DNA from: Lysobacterales bacterium
Lineage (GTDB): Bacteria; Pseudomonadota; Gammaproteobacteria; Xanthomonadales; Xanthomonadaceae
Direction of reading: 5' to 3'
NCBI GenBank assembly: GCA_020442465.1
Contig: JAGRJY010000160.1
Span: 62,001 to 126,000, forward strand
Length of the DNA: 64,000 nucleotides
The notes beneath the pieces are model-generated. The model was not told the DNA's origin, made no database searches, and saw only the letters and a program-made list of their open reading frames with translations. Of this stretch, positions 59,121 through 64,000 are shown one piece after another (positions within the stretch are counted from its first letter, which is position 1; each line of letters starts with the position of its first letter). A program made the position numbers and the translations under genes.

Positions 59121-59780
59121 TCAGTCGGTGGCTGGGGAGCCGGTCGACGGCGCGTCGATGGGGTAGCGATAGTGTCCGGTGATGGGATAGCGGAACAGGA
59201 TGTCGTCCTCGACCACGCCGGCGCCAATGTTGTGCAGGATCAGCGGTCTGGTGTCGTCTCGAGCGCGGCGGTCGGAGACGATGCCGATGTGCGGCAGGTT
59301 GCCGGGCAGCATCCAGGTGATGAGGTCGCCGGGGCGAAGGTCGCCTTGCCGTTCCGGCGATGGAGCAGGTAGTTCGGCGCGTTGGCGCGCGAGGTACTTT
59401 TGCAGGTTCGGCACGCGCCGGTGATCGATGTTGGCGTCGGGCCGGCTGAGACCCCACAGCGCGGGGTAGGCGGAGAAGTCTCTGCGCATGTCCTCGTGCA
59501 CGCGCTGCTGCAGGTCGATCTGCTGACGTCGATAGGCGCGAATCACCACATCCGTACAGACGCCCCGATCGGCAGGTACGTCGCCGCCCGGATAGTCGAT
59601 ACGCCGGTAGCTGCCGTCGTAGACCACCGCGTGCAAGGTCTGCGCGCGCGCTGCCTCGACGAGTGCGCCGGGCTCGAACGACGCCAGGGCTGGGTGGGCA
59701 CCTAGCAGGCATGCCAGGGCCAGCAGCATCGATGCAGCTCTGGGTGGGGTCGTGCGGTGTCGTGCGGGGCGTGCAGTCAT
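59121..59780 (-). CDS. DUF1287 exported protein (NlpC/P60-like)
   Basis: This protein of 219 residues has an N-terminal signal region (MTARPARHRTTPPRAA then MLLALACLLGAHPALAS). The DUF1287 domain (about 40-205) has GVCTDVVIRAYRRQ with a likely catalytic Cys and NLPHIGIVSDRRA with a His, as in YijF-like proteins of the NlpC/P60 class. The start at 59780 is chosen; ten more codons are open upstream. The gene is downstream of the truncated haemoglobin gene on the same strand (32 bases), possibly the same transcript. Peptidoglycan or amide hydrolysis is only a suggestion. Confidence 0.82.
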   Translation of the reverse strand: MTARPARHRTTPPRAASMLLALACLLGAHPALASFEPGALVEAARAQTLHAVVYDGSYRRIDYPGGDVPADRGVCTDVVIRAYRRQQIDLQQRVHEDMRRDFSAYPALWGLSRPDANIDHRRVPNLQKYLARQRAELPAPSPERQGDLRPGDLITWMLPGNLPHIGIVSDRRARDDTRPLILHNIGAGVVEDDILFRYPITGHYRYPIDAPSTGSPATD

Positions 59781-59812: not shown

Positions 59813-60250
59813 CTACTGGCGCACGATGTCAGGCTGCATGGGCGCAAGGCGACGCAGCAGACGGTTCTGCGCACCGACGTCGACCGAGCGTTCCTCCATG
59901 ACGTCGATCAGGTCTTCGACCAGGGCGTTGAATTCCGCCTCGCTGATGTTGCGGCCGGCATGCGACTCCTGCATGTCGAGACCTTCGTAGACGCAGGGAC
60001 CGCCGGACTCGAAACAGATCTGTTCGATCAGCCGCTGCCGCAGGTTGATGATGTCGGCATCGGCGAAGTGATGGGCGATGCGCGGGTCGTCGACCATCTT
60101 GTACAGCAGCCCTTCGACGATTGCGGTGATGCCCGCATCACCGCCGAGATCGTGATACAGCGCGTCGCTGCGCGGCGGTGCGGGTTGGTGCGCACAGCCG
60201 CCAGCCAGTGCCGTGGCGAGTGCGAGAGCAGCCATCACTCGCGATGTCAC
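59813..60250 (-). CDS. Group 1 truncated haemoglobin, predicted lipoprotein
   Basis: This 145-residue protein has a short signal ending LAGGC (lipid Cys19), so it should be anchored in the envelope. The haemoglobin domain (about 28-140) has LYHDLGGDAGITAIV, the proximal His97 in MQESHAGRNIS, Tyr50 near the distal pocket and two Cys (79, 86) around ICFESGGPCVYEG. Truncated haemoglobins bind O2, NO or CO. An exported, lipidated form is unusual. The GTG start at 60250 overlaps the stop of the DUF3034 gene (GTGA) and provides a positive N-terminus; an ATG five codons later is an alternative. Confidence 0.82.
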   Translation of the reverse strand: MTSRVMAALALATALAGGCAHQPAPPRSDALYHDLGGDAGITAIVEGLLYKMVDDPRIAHHFADADIINLRQRLIEQICFESGGPCVYEGLDMQESHAGRNISEAEFNALVEDLIDVMEERSVDVGAQNRLLRRLAPMQPDIVRQ

Positions 60251-61119
60251 AGCGACACCTGCAGCGACAGGTACCACCCCGCCTGGCTGTCGAGCGTCGC
60301 GATCGAGCCGAGATCCGCGTAGGCGGCGACCAGTGCCACGTGCTTGTTGGGAAACCACGCCACGAACAGATCCTGCCAGTCGTCCTCGCGGGCAAAACCG
60401 AGATTGTCGGGCTTCTGCCGGAATTCGTAGCCGATCGCCCAGTGACGGTCGAGCAGGACGGCGGCGGTGATCTCGGCCACCAGCGAGCGCCCCGACTTGG
60501 CGTCACCGCCGAAGCCGAGCAACCCGGTCTGGTTGGCTCTGGTCGAGCGCAAGGTGCCGTTCAGCAGCACGTTGCGGCCACCGACACCTCCGAGAAACAG
60601 CTTGCTCGCGGCCAGATAGACATCGACATCGCTGTCGTCCCGGGCACCGACCAGGCTGGGTACGAGGAAGTCGCGTTGCTTCTTGTGCTGCACGCCCAGC
60701 GAGATCTGCGGCCAGTCCGTGTAAATCAGGTCGCCGGTCAGGCGAACCTTGACGCCGACGATGTCCTGCCGGAAGCGGTCGGTGGGCAGGGAGAGTGCCG
60801 ACGCGAGGGTAGGCAGTTCGAACCGCTGCTTCGCGATCGACACTTCGACGCGGTTGTTCCATCCGAACGCGACAGCTGCCGAGTTCAGGCGGTAGTCGTC
60901 GGTGTCGACGACCGTGGCGGATGCGGTCGCGCCCCACTGGTCGCGCTCGCCGTAGCCGGCAATGACCGCCCAGGGGACGACGCCGCCCCCGCCACCGCCT
61001 TCGATCAGCGTCGCCCCGGAGGTGGCGAGAATGCGCCCACCGGTCGGCGACGATTCGGCTACGCTGGCGCCAGCCGACGCAAGAAGGAACACAACGGCAG
61101 CGATCATCTCGATGCGCAT
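60247..61119 (-). CDS. DUF3034 family protein, predicted outer membrane beta protein
   Basis: This protein of 290 residues has a signal peptide (about 1-21, ending ASVAES) and the DUF3034 pattern: GGRILATSGATLIEGGGGGGVVPWAV, a run of beta strands (TASATVVDTDDYRLNSAAVAFG) and LPTDRFRQDIVGVKVRL. It ends in GWYLSLQVSL with a terminal hydrophobic residue, as in barrel proteins. Its function is unknown. Its stop is coupled to the haemoglobin gene, and the GGDEF/EAL gene lies 54 bases upstream. Confidence 0.85.
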   Translation of the reverse strand: MRIEMIAAVVFLLASAGASVAESSPTGGRILATSGATLIEGGGGGGVVPWAVIAGYGERDQWGATASATVVDTDDYRLNSAAVAFGWNNRVEVSIAKQRFELPTLASALSLPTDRFRQDIVGVKVRLTGDLIYTDWPQISLGVQHKKQRDFLVPSLVGARDDSDVDVYLAASKLFLGGVGGRNVLLNGTLRSTRANQTGLLGFGGDAKSGRSLVAEITAAVLLDRHWAIGYEFRQKPDNLGFAREDDWQDLFVAWFPNKHVALVAAYADLGSIATLDSQAGWYLSLQVSL

Positions 61120-61173
61120 GACGGGGATGCTCAGGTCCTGGACGACTCCATCATAGAGGCTGCCGTGTGAAAG

Positions 61174-63561
61174 TCAGGCCGGTCGGGCAGGGCGTTCGCT
61201 GATCCAGCGACTGAATTCTGCCGCGGGCAGGGGGCGTGAGTAGAAGTAGCCCTGCGCGGTTTCGCAGCCCAACGACTCGAGCAGGCGTCGTCCTTCTTCC
61301 GTCTCCACGCCCTCGGCGACCACCTTCAGGCGCAGCGCATGCGCCAGCTCGACGATCGATTGCACAATGCGTTCGTCTTCCGTGCCCGGGAGCAGGTTCA
61401 TGACGAAACTCTTGTCGATCTTGAGTTCATCGACCGGCAGACGCTTGAGCTGCGCCAGCGAAGAATGGCCAGTGCCGAAGTCGTCGATCGAAAAGTGAAG
61501 CCCGCCACGACGCAGCCGGTGCATGGCCTCCAGGGCGTGCTCGAGATTGCGCATCATCGCGCCCTCGGTCACCTCCAGGATGAAGTCGGACGGTGGAACC
61601 CGGTGTCGCTTGAGGGCGTCGAGCACGGTGTCGACGATCTGCGGATCGGCAAGGTCGAGCGGCGACAGGTTCACCGCGACGCCACACACGATGCCCTGCT
61701 GGCGCCATGCCGCGCACTGCGCGGCGGCGCGGTCGAGCACGAAGGCCGTGATGGTGCGGATCAGGCCCGTACGCTCGGCCAAGGGGATGAACTCGTCCGG
61801 CGGGATGCGTCCGATCTCGTGGTGTTGCCAGCGAAGCAGTACCTCGGCGTGGCGCACCTGCCGGGTCGCCAGGTCGACCTTGGGTTGGAAGAACAGTTCG
61901 AATTCATCGCGCTCGATCGCCAGCCGCAGTTCGCCGATCAGGCGCAGCTGGCGAAGCCTCTGTTCGTCGTGTCCCGGCGCATAGCAGCGTTTGACTTCGT
62001 CGTTGTCCTTGGCCTCGTTCAGCGCGATGTCAGCCCTTCGGGCCATCGAGGCGCCGTCGATCGGCGTATCGGGAAACGGTGCAATGCCCATGGTGACGTC
62101 GATCCGGAACGGCGTGCCGTCGACCTCGATCGGCATGCACAGCTCTTCGTGCAGCCGGTCGGCGCGCTGCGTACACACCTCGGGGTCGACGCCGTCGACC
62201 AGCAGCAGGAATTCGTCACCACTCCAGCGCGAGACCACATCGCCCGACCGGACTGCCCGGCTCAGGCGTTCGGAGAGCGTGACGAGCAGTCGATCACCGA
62301 AGGCGTGACCAAACAGATCGTTGATCTGCCGGAGGTGACGGATGTCGATGAGTACGACAGCGCCGGTCGCGGCCTGGTCGTTCTCCGGCGACAGCCTCCG
62401 GTCAAGTTCGAGCAGCGCGCGCTCGCGATTCGGCAGGCCGGTCAGCGCGTCGTGCCCGGCCTGGAACACGATTTGCTGCTCGCGCTGGGCAATGCCGCGC
62501 TGCATCTGGTTGAACGCACGCGACAGCTCGGCCAGTTCGTCGTGGCCGTACACCTCGAGCTCGGTGTTGTAGTCGCCCTCGATGATGCGCGCGGCGGCGT
62601 CAGCCATCTTGCCCAGCGGGCGGGTGACCCGACGACCCGCGTGCCAGGCCGCAGCGAGGGCGAGCAGGGCCGCCAGCACGGAGATTTCGATCAACGTGTT
62701 GCGCAATCCCATGTAGGGAGCCCAGGCCGCCTGCCTTGATGCGACCAGTGCCAGCCAGAGCGGCTTGATGCCCGGCAGGGACAGCCGAAGCAGATTGGTG
62801 GGTCGATCGCTCGCGATCGCCATCGAGACCGAACTCGCCGAATCGGGCAGGTCGCGCAAGTGAGCGCAGTCCTCGGTGCCGAGGATCCATTCTCCCAGCG
62901 CCTCGGTGCGAAGGCGGGTGCTGCAGTCGCGTCCATCAATCAGGGCGGCATCGACCCCGGCCAGGTCATGGAATGCCTCCAGCGACTCGCCGTTTAGGGG
63001 CTGCATCATCGCGGCCCAGGCGATCAGGTCCGGTGCAAAGACCGGCACCATGGCGATCATCTGCACCTGTTCGCCGACCTGCGCCACGCCGACGCTGAAG
63101 CCCTGTTGTGTGGCTTCGGCGCGCAACGCGGACACCAGCTCGGACAGCGCTTCGTCGTCGATGCCGGACTCGACGAGGTTGGCGACCAGCATGGCGCCTT
63201 GGGCATCCAGCGCGATCTGCCCGCTGGCACCAATCCGGTTGCCCGCGTTGGACAGTGCCGACTGCACGGTTGGCACGTCGGCCGTGCTCAGCGCTTGCTT
63301 GAAACCGAAGTCTTCCGCTAGCACCGAGGTTCGATCCATCAGCTGCTGCAGGCGCGTCAGGTGAGTCTCTTTCCAGACCCGCTCGCCGAACGCCAGCTCA
63401 CGGTCGAGCTGACGGTCGACCGCGCGCTGCACCGCGAACTGCACCGCCGCGGCCAGGGCGACGACCGTGCTCAGCACGACCAGCACGAGCAGAAGGATCA
63501 ACCGGGTGCCGAAACGCATGCCGGTTCGCAGGTTGTCGTCCCGATCGTTCGCGTCAGTCAT
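61174..63561 (-). CDS. Membrane GGDEF-EAL protein with a periplasmic dCache-like sensor
   Basis: This protein of 795 residues has membrane helix 1 (about 18-42), a periplasmic region (about 43-282) with a dCACHE_3-like pattern (DFGFKQALSTADVPTVQSAL, SGQIALDAQGAMLV) and two Cys (about 212 and 231), membrane helix 2 (about 286-308), a HAMP, a GGDEF domain (about 365-530) and an EAL domain (about 545-790). The cyclase motif is SGDEF (RWSGDEFLLL), so activity is doubtful. The EAL motif reads EVLLRW and DDFGTGHSS is intact, so phosphodiesterase activity is likely. It overlaps the stop of the upstream cupredoxin-like gene by eight bases. Confidence 0.93.
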   Translation of the reverse strand: MTDANDRDDNLRTGMRFGTRLILLLVLVVLSTVVALAAAVQFAVQRAVDRQLDRELAFGERVWKETHLTRLQQLMDRTSVLAEDFGFKQALSTADVPTVQSALSNAGNRIGASGQIALDAQGAMLVANLVESGIDDEALSELVSALRAEATQQGFSVGVAQVGEQVQMIAMVPVFAPDLIAWAAMMQPLNGESLEAFHDLAGVDAALIDGRDCSTRLRTEALGEWILGTEDCAHLRDLPDSASSVSMAIASDRPTNLLRLSLPGIKPLWLALVASRQAAWAPYMGLRNTLIEISVLAALLALAAAWHAGRRVTRPLGKMADAAARIIEGDYNTELEVYGHDELAELSRAFNQMQRGIAQREQQIVFQAGHDALTGLPNRERALLELDRRLSPENDQAATGAVVLIDIRHLRQINDLFGHAFGDRLLVTLSERLSRAVRSGDVVSRWSGDEFLLLVDGVDPEVCTQRADRLHEELCMPIEVDGTPFRIDVTMGIAPFPDTPIDGASMARRADIALNEAKDNDEVKRCYAPGHDEQRLRQLRLIGELRLAIERDEFELFFQPKVDLATRQVRHAEVLLRWQHHEIGRIPPDEFIPLAERTGLIRTITAFVLDRAAAQCAAWRQQGIVCGVAVNLSPLDLADPQIVDTVLDALKRHRVPPSDFILEVTEGAMMRNLEHALEAMHRLRRGGLHFSIDDFGTGHSSLAQLKRLPVDELKIDKSFVMNLLPGTEDERIVQSIVELAHALRLKVVAEGVETEEGRRLLESLGCETAQGYFYSRPLPAAEFSRWISERPARPA

Positions 63562-64000
63562 GCTTGAGGTTCCGGAAGCGCTCCTGCAGGGCGCGCATGC
63601 GCTCGTCGCCGCGGGGTGGCGGTGGCGGACGGAGCTCGACGTCGAAGCTCCGGTGTTCGGTGCTGTCCTCCGCGCTCAGAATCAGGTGTTCGGGCGCCAC
63701 GCTGCCGGACAGTCGTTCGTGCCAGACGCGCAATGCGTACTCGCCGGCCGGAAGCTCGACGCGGGCCAGCCCGTTCGTGTCGGACTCGGCGAAGTAGCGC
63801 GTGTCGAGGACGACGATGTAGCCCGTCATCCAGTCGTGGATATTGCAGCCCAGCGTCACCACGCCGGGGCTGTCGAACACGATCGGCTCGGGTGGCGTGC
63901 CGCTGTACAACGGGAGCTCGAATCGCTTGGCCGCAGAGAAGGAATACACCTGATGCCGGGTCACGTCGCTGTTCGGAAAGCGCACCCGTGACCCCACCGG
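63554..64000 (-). CDS. Cupredoxin-like protein (annotated in relatives as methylamine utilization protein), 5' end outside window
   Basis: Only the C-terminal 148 residues are visible; the frame runs off the right edge. The domain has LGCNIHDWMTGYIV, where Cys, His and Met are spaced as C-x2-H-x2-M, the type 1 copper ligand pattern. RVELPAGEYALRVWHERL and a basic tail follow. Similar proteins are labelled methylamine utilization protein, though no mau genes are here. It is probably a periplasmic copper or carbohydrate-binding-like protein. The stop overlaps the GGDEF-EAL start, so it is coupled to it. Confidence 0.75.
   Translation of the reverse strand, partial: PVGSRVRFPNSDVTRHQVYSFSAAKRFELPLYSGTPPEPIVFDSPGVVTLGCNIHDWMTGYIVVLDTRYFAESDTNGLARVELPAGEYALRVWHERLSGSVAPEHLILSAEDSTEHRSFDVELRPPPPPRGDERMRALQERFRNLKHD

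Follow-up and report, generated by a model that had tools for sequence, protein, structure and literature searches.

In the LuxPQ system, LuxQ works through a periplasmic partner, LuxP. One-component c-di-GMP receptors with periplasmic partners are also a known kind, and HmsCD is named in a 2022 census of c-di-GMP sensing, in which neither copper nor truncated globins were mentioned. In Pseudomonas aeruginosa, the GGDEF-EAL receptors PA2072/IsmP and PA0847 are membrane c-di-GMP proteins with a CHASE4 sensor of two subdomains in the periplasm. CHASE4 c-di-GMP sensors of this species were reported to bind iron, haem or copper, and the available portions of the two reports contain no mention of cupredoxin, barrel or globin partners for these receptors (PMC10904736, PMC13277305).

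Several solved protein families are also relevant to the locus described here. Amicyanin (MauC) and pseudoazurin carry type-1 copper ligands, and amicyanin has in addition a short C-x2-H-x2-M loop. FapF, KdgM and NanC are outer-membrane channels with a 12-stranded β-barrel. In HbN of Mycobacterium tuberculosis, O2 binding and NO dioxygenation have been linked to Tyr B10 and Gln E11. The four genes described here, which encode relatives of these proteins by sequence or by predicted fold, look like one undescribed signalling system. No published description or function of the four-gene set was found in the literature searched, which covered few subscription papers.

Gene organization of the locus

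The window, which is the whole stretch of 64,000 nucleotides that was analysed, contained four minus-strand genes for a cupredoxin, a GGDEF-EAL receptor, a DUF3034 protein and a truncated haemoglobin (Table 1). The stop codon of the cupredoxin gene (63554–63556) and the ATG of the GGDEF-EAL gene at 63561 formed an 8-base overlap, and the end of the GGDEF-EAL gene (61174) was separated from the DUF3034 start (61119) by 54 bases. The TGA stop codon of the DUF3034 gene (60247–60249) and the GTG start codon of the globin gene (60248–60250) shared the sequence GTGA. Pfam matched dCache_3, HAMP, GGDEF and EAL in the receptor, DUF3034 (E 3.5e-114) and Bac_globin (E 1e-11). The four genes and their spacings had been given in a preliminary description of this DNA, and both were borne out by the coordinates and the Pfam matches.

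The cupredoxin gene was cut by the end of the window. The full gene encodes about 225 residues, and its likely GTG start is located 231 bases beyond the window (contig C92:126231, about 64231 in window numbering). An HD-GYP response-regulator gene, located 174 bases before the cupredoxin gene in the same direction, and mfd were named on this side by sequence inspection. Directly downstream of the globin gene, a gene for a DUF1287 exported protein (59121–59780, minus strand) had no match seen in the other loci compared. Both the HD-GYP/mfd side and the DUF1287 neighbour lie outside the conserved unit.

Table 1. Positions of the four genes and of the modelled receptor segment in the window
Feature	Position	Strand	Remarks
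Cupredoxin, C-terminal 148 residues, exported, amicyanin-like	63554..64000	-	Loop CNIHDWM and upstream His ligand
Membrane receptor: TM, periplasmic dCache_3/CHASE4-like double sensor, TM, HAMP, GGDEF (SGDEF), EAL (EVL)	61174..63561	-	
Receptor sensor and HAMP part, residues 20–345	62527..63504	-	Model, pLDDT 94
DUF3034 protein, predicted 12-stranded outer-membrane β-barrel, signal peptide	60247..61119	-	
Group 1 truncated haemoglobin, exported, probable lipoprotein (LAGGC), invariant Cys pair, apolar distal pocket, proximal His kept	59813..60250	-	

Conservation of the gene set

Of 369 genomes surveyed in the class, 18 carried DUF3034. It was also present in 18 of 40 close relatives and, across the phylum, in 39 of 398 genomes, and was absent from all 14 control genomes. 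A single-sequence scan of genome contigs recovered only three relatives, and the surroundings of 73 DUF3034 loci were read with profiles built in this analysis. The globin gene was located near DUF3034 at 67 of these loci, the cupredoxin gene (within 6 kb) at 51, the receptor gene at 47 and all four genes together at 45, all of these counts being lower bounds with some contigs short. At least one locus with all four genes was found in 18 of 34 families, likewise a lower bound, where two loci from another collection were each taken as a family of their own. The median gap was −1 bp between cupredoxin and receptor, 10 bp between receptor and DUF3034 and 6 bp between DUF3034 and globin, compared with 47 bp for same-strand neighbours overall in these loci. 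The cupredoxin–receptor gap was 30 bp or less in 37 of 43 cases. Since the gene set recurred in unrelated genomes with flanking genes that varied from locus to locus, it represents more than a chance grouping.

The cupredoxin–receptor pair was divergent from the DUF3034–globin pair in six genomes outside the class, and DUF3034 was divergent from the other three genes at one locus inside the class (L037). A single fixed operon order was therefore rejected, and the survival of the set through rearrangement argues for a functional link beyond operon inertia. The preliminary description had named a lack of conserved gene order in other genomes as evidence against the module; the survey found conservation, with rearranged orders. 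DUF3034–globin pairs with no cupredoxin or receptor nearby were found at many loci, some of them on short contigs, which suggests that this pair can work alone. The evolutionary distances of all gene pairs correlated about equally in a mirror-tree comparison (r 0.71–0.84), and co-evolution was thus dropped as a pointer to the cupredoxin–receptor pair.

At L144 and L145, a GGDEF-EAL receptor gene stood on either side of one cupredoxin gene. The two receptors belong to one family, and this local duplication could have led to a split of the cupredoxin inputs.

Copper site of the cupredoxin

The four type-1 copper ligands, His, Cys, His and Met, were kept in all 71 cupredoxins, with the amicyanin-type loop C-x2-H-x2-M. 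The loop sequence CNIHDxM was found in each of the 50 copies linked to a GGDEF-EAL receptor and in none of the nine kinase-linked copies, in which the Asp residue never occurred. Pfam assigned the full window cupredoxin to no family, and Copper-bind was matched by 5 of 19 relatives. The alignment profile matched the type 1 copper domain (E 8.5e-8), amicyanin (E 5.7e-5) and other blue copper proteins, and the identity of the window cupredoxin comes from these profile matches together with the ligands. Although the ligands are shared with amicyanin and pseudoazurin, most relatives have an extra C-terminal CarboxypepD_reg-like part, and the cupredoxin of the module adjoins signalling genes. Methylamine metabolism was an idea from the amicyanin homology only, and no mau genes were noticed beside the module, in passing rather than by a dedicated search.

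The cupredoxin–receptor core and its outputs

An alignment search with the cupredoxin gave matches in 92 of the 369 class genomes, far more than DUF3034, although other cupredoxins may account for the weaker hits. Twenty of the stronger loci not beside DUF3034 were read. A receptor with the same kind of sensor, usually followed by HAMP, was encoded by the adjacent gene or one nearby at 17 of these loci, and at the other three no receptor was found beside the cupredoxin. The outputs of the 17 receptors were GGDEF-EAL (6), Ser/Thr kinase (6), class III cyclase (4) and histidine kinase (1), and kinase outputs were also found at two DUF3034 loci (L036 and L056). Because the pair occurs without DUF3034 and with different outputs, it is concluded that the cupredoxin and the receptor form the core with an exchangeable output, and that the barrel and the globin form a second unit, which joins in many lineages. 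This core, with its other outputs and its independence of globin and DUF3034, had been missed in the preliminary description.

Other porin-like barrels, of the Porin_O_P and Porin_5 types, adjoined several cupredoxins or cupredoxin–receptor pairs without DUF3034. The genome of the window itself encoded two more amicyanin-like cupredoxins, at L097 (G000:C32:15000-30000) and L098 (G000:C120:94500-109327). After one of them came genes for a dCache_3-HAMP-Ser/Thr kinase receptor and a barrel-like protein, and after the other a gene for a Porin_O_P-type protein. At L042:5952-9515 (minus strand), the run of DUF3034, globin and cupredoxin genes was followed by genes for an RskA_C anti-sigma factor and an ECF-type sigma factor, which may represent a fifth type of output. 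A cupredoxin relative at L111:1869-6900 (minus strand) was located by an MMPL transporter, a small exported protein and a barrel-like protein with no receptor, and represents a different cupredoxin cluster.

Periplasmic sensor and cytoplasmic output of the receptor

The sensor flanked by transmembrane helices, HAMP, GGDEF and EAL of the window receptor all scored above the curated cut-offs. The sensor matched dCache_3 (PF14827) with 40 bits against a cut-off of 25.7, as did 54 of 59 relatives, and 23 of the 59 matched CHASE4 (PF05228), to which the window sensor had no match at E 0.01. The best structural match of the sensor model was to the LuxQ periplasmic domains (Z 15.3, r.m.s.d. 3.6, 191 residues), alongside single PAS-like CitA domains, and the PA2072 CHASE4 domain was next (Z 13.6, r.m.s.d. 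3.6, 177 residues). Judged from the model, the fold class is firm, whereas the nearest family is not, since the ranks of the structural matches were close. The solved dCache domains that matched the model were mostly receptors for small organic ligands, and no evident conserved metal-binding cluster was seen in the sensor alignment.

The predicted sensor shares its fold with the periplasmic domain of LuxQ. In contrast to LuxPQ, the partner in the module would be a cupredoxin instead of a sugar-binding-type protein, and the output is a GGDEF-EAL, kinase or cyclase domain. PA2072/IsmP and PA0847 likewise have a periplasmic sensor of related fold; unlike these proteins, the window receptor has a sensor that is dCache_3 by Pfam and is followed by HAMP rather than PAS, and its gene is coupled to those of the cupredoxin, the barrel and the globin.

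In 21 aligned proteins, the EAL catalytic motifs (ExL, NLS, ExTE, DDFGTG, KID and EGVE) were kept in nearly every column, the EAL motif itself reading EVL in the window and EAL in most others. The GGDEF motif read SGDEF in the window and was decayed in several relatives. As the EAL motifs were kept while GGDEF was often decayed, the GGDEF-EAL output is probably a c-di-GMP phosphodiesterase, and GGDEF as the main activity was set aside. The window receptor, which keeps SGDEF, might carry out both activities.

Predicted outer-membrane barrel and exported haemoglobin

The DUF3034 protein belongs to a family of unknown function and models as a 12-stranded outer-membrane barrel. The 12 strands closed into a barrel in the model (pLDDT 87), a signal peptide was present, and many relatives end in F, in keeping with an OMP-like C-terminal strand. 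The model matched solved 12-stranded barrels with Z values of 17.7 to 19.4, including KdgM, NanC and FapF (Z 19.4, r.m.s.d. 3.1, 221 residues), although the identity with these channels was about 10%.

The closest solved family of the haemoglobin was HbN (E about 1e-25). Among 67 globin sequences, the proximal His F8 and two Cys residues (HbN positions 63 and 70) were present in all and the CD1 Phe in 66. Position B10 was Leu, Val, Ile or Met in 64 sequences and Tyr in none, and positions E7 and E11 were always apolar. The proximal His and the CD1 Phe are thus common to HbN and the module globin, whereas the module globin is exported, contains Cys-x6-Cys, replaces Tyr B10 by Leu, Val, Ile or Met and has Leu, Phe or Ile at E11. 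Every copy had an N-terminal hydrophobic stretch, and a simple pattern detected a lipobox in 41 of 67; the window globin is a probable lipoprotein. As read from the alignment, the globins form a subfamily of exported group 1 proteins in which two cysteines, probably joined in a disulfide, are invariant and the distal pocket is apolar. No globin fused to an output enzyme, as in a globin-coupled sensor, was present in the module loci listed, where the globin was a separate exported protein.

Stable O2 binding was lost and auto-oxidation became rapid when the distal tyrosine of a globin-coupled sensor was mutated (PMC12805357). By analogy with this mutant, the module globin, which has no Tyr B10, is unlikely to hold O2 stably, and its apolar pocket would suit NO or CO.

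Lone exported truncated globins with the same Cys-x6-Cys and without DUF3034 were found at L209 and L211–L218, of which L214 belongs to the genome of the window (C120:45844-46254), and the exported two-cysteine globin is thus a wider family. At L217:7357-9165 (plus strand), a sigma-54-type AAA activator with an apparent C-terminal truncated globin fusion was located by an exported globin gene and RND-type efflux genes.

Nature of the signal

The preliminary description had joined the exported haemoglobin, the copper protein and the c-di-GMP enzyme with periplasmic input into one module that senses O2, NO or redox state. The module is supported by its conservation, and the sensing of these cues is a proposal. 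Copper nitrite reductase above the cut-off was no more frequent with the module (4 of 41 genomes) than without it (7 of 39). This comparison, which covered that enzyme alone and used hand-picked comparison genomes instead of phylogeny-matched ones, gave no support for an NO link. FNR/DNR-type sites upstream of the cupredoxin gene were not found beyond the level of shuffled sequences. For DUF3034 the upstream count was 13 of 67 at two mismatches, where shuffles averaged 6.3, a signal too weak to use. The apolar globin pocket also speaks against stable O2 binding.

Proposed mechanism and alternative explanations

An envelope signalling module, in which the cupredoxin is read by the receptor and a barrel–globin unit shapes the input, was judged to have an even chance of being correct. 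The exported amicyanin-type cupredoxin would be the dedicated periplasmic partner of the dCache_3/CHASE4-like membrane receptor, whose periplasmic domain would respond to the cupredoxin, either to its copper or redox state or to its copper cargo, in the way that LuxQ reads LuxP. HAMP would relay the signal to the cytoplasmic GGDEF-EAL part, whose most likely activity is that of a c-di-GMP phosphodiesterase. At the outer membrane, the DUF3034 barrel and the exported globin may work as one unit that lets in or converts a small molecule and so shapes the input, and this unit would partly set the cupredoxin's copper or redox state. The apolar haem pocket would point to a role in NO, CO or haem-redox chemistry, not in O2 storage. 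We infer direct contact between cupredoxin and receptor from the gene neighbourhood and the fold analogy only, and contact between barrel and globin, the globin disulfide, the direction of the c-di-GMP response and the nature of the signal should be read in the same conditional sense.

The receptor could instead bind a metal or haem itself, with the cupredoxin and the globin as carriers or buffers and DUF3034 as the outer-membrane route. This is the main rival because CHASE4 domains, to which the sensor fold is related through PA2072, are reported to bind iron, haem and copper. The module also contains one copper and one haem protein, but the Pfam result for CHASE4 in the window sensor and the lack of an evident metal-binding cluster in the alignment make direct sensing somewhat unlikely. 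The set could also serve protective chemistry in the envelope, where NO, peroxide or reactive copper close to the outer membrane would be removed or converted by the cupredoxin and the globin acting as a small redox couple, and a merely co-expressed receptor would change behaviour when that chemistry is needed. The export of both proteins, their kept metal-site residues and the frequent DUF3034–globin pairs without a receptor are consistent with such a role. It was considered unlikely, as the cupredoxin pairs with the receptor family far from globin and DUF3034 and with four kinds of output, and the globin pocket has neither the Tyr B10 nor the Gln E11 of HbN.

Import of a dCache_3 ligand by DUF3034 and the other porin-like barrels, with modification of the ligand by the cupredoxin and the globin, would agree with the Porin_O_P and Porin_5 barrels beside cupredoxins and with the small organic ligands of most matching dCache structures. 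No recurring catabolic or transport genes were found beside the module, however, and the flanks differ between loci, so that this reading was regarded as distinctly unlikely. A signalling role is favoured by the cupredoxin–receptor pairing without globin and DUF3034 and with four outputs.

Implications

It is a realistic possibility that the cupredoxin-gated receptor forms a separate class. A fuller proposal, which is tentative and falls short of an even chance, is an undescribed class in which one blue-copper protein and one receptor domain serve c-di-GMP, cyclic-nucleotide, Ser/Thr-kinase and histidine-kinase outputs. In many lineages this pair would be joined by a barrel in the outer membrane and an exported haemoglobin with a disulfide bond, which would detect NO or CO in its apolar pocket. 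With the module, a DUF barrel, an exported haemoglobin and a cupredoxin known by homology only, until now unconnected, would be tied to one receptor family. The input to a conserved receptor class with c-di-GMP, cyclic-nucleotide and kinase outputs becomes testable. For the question of what haem proteins do outside the cytoplasm, the exported group 1 globin, with its invariant Cys pair and a distal side that lacks polar residues, offers an unusual case to study.
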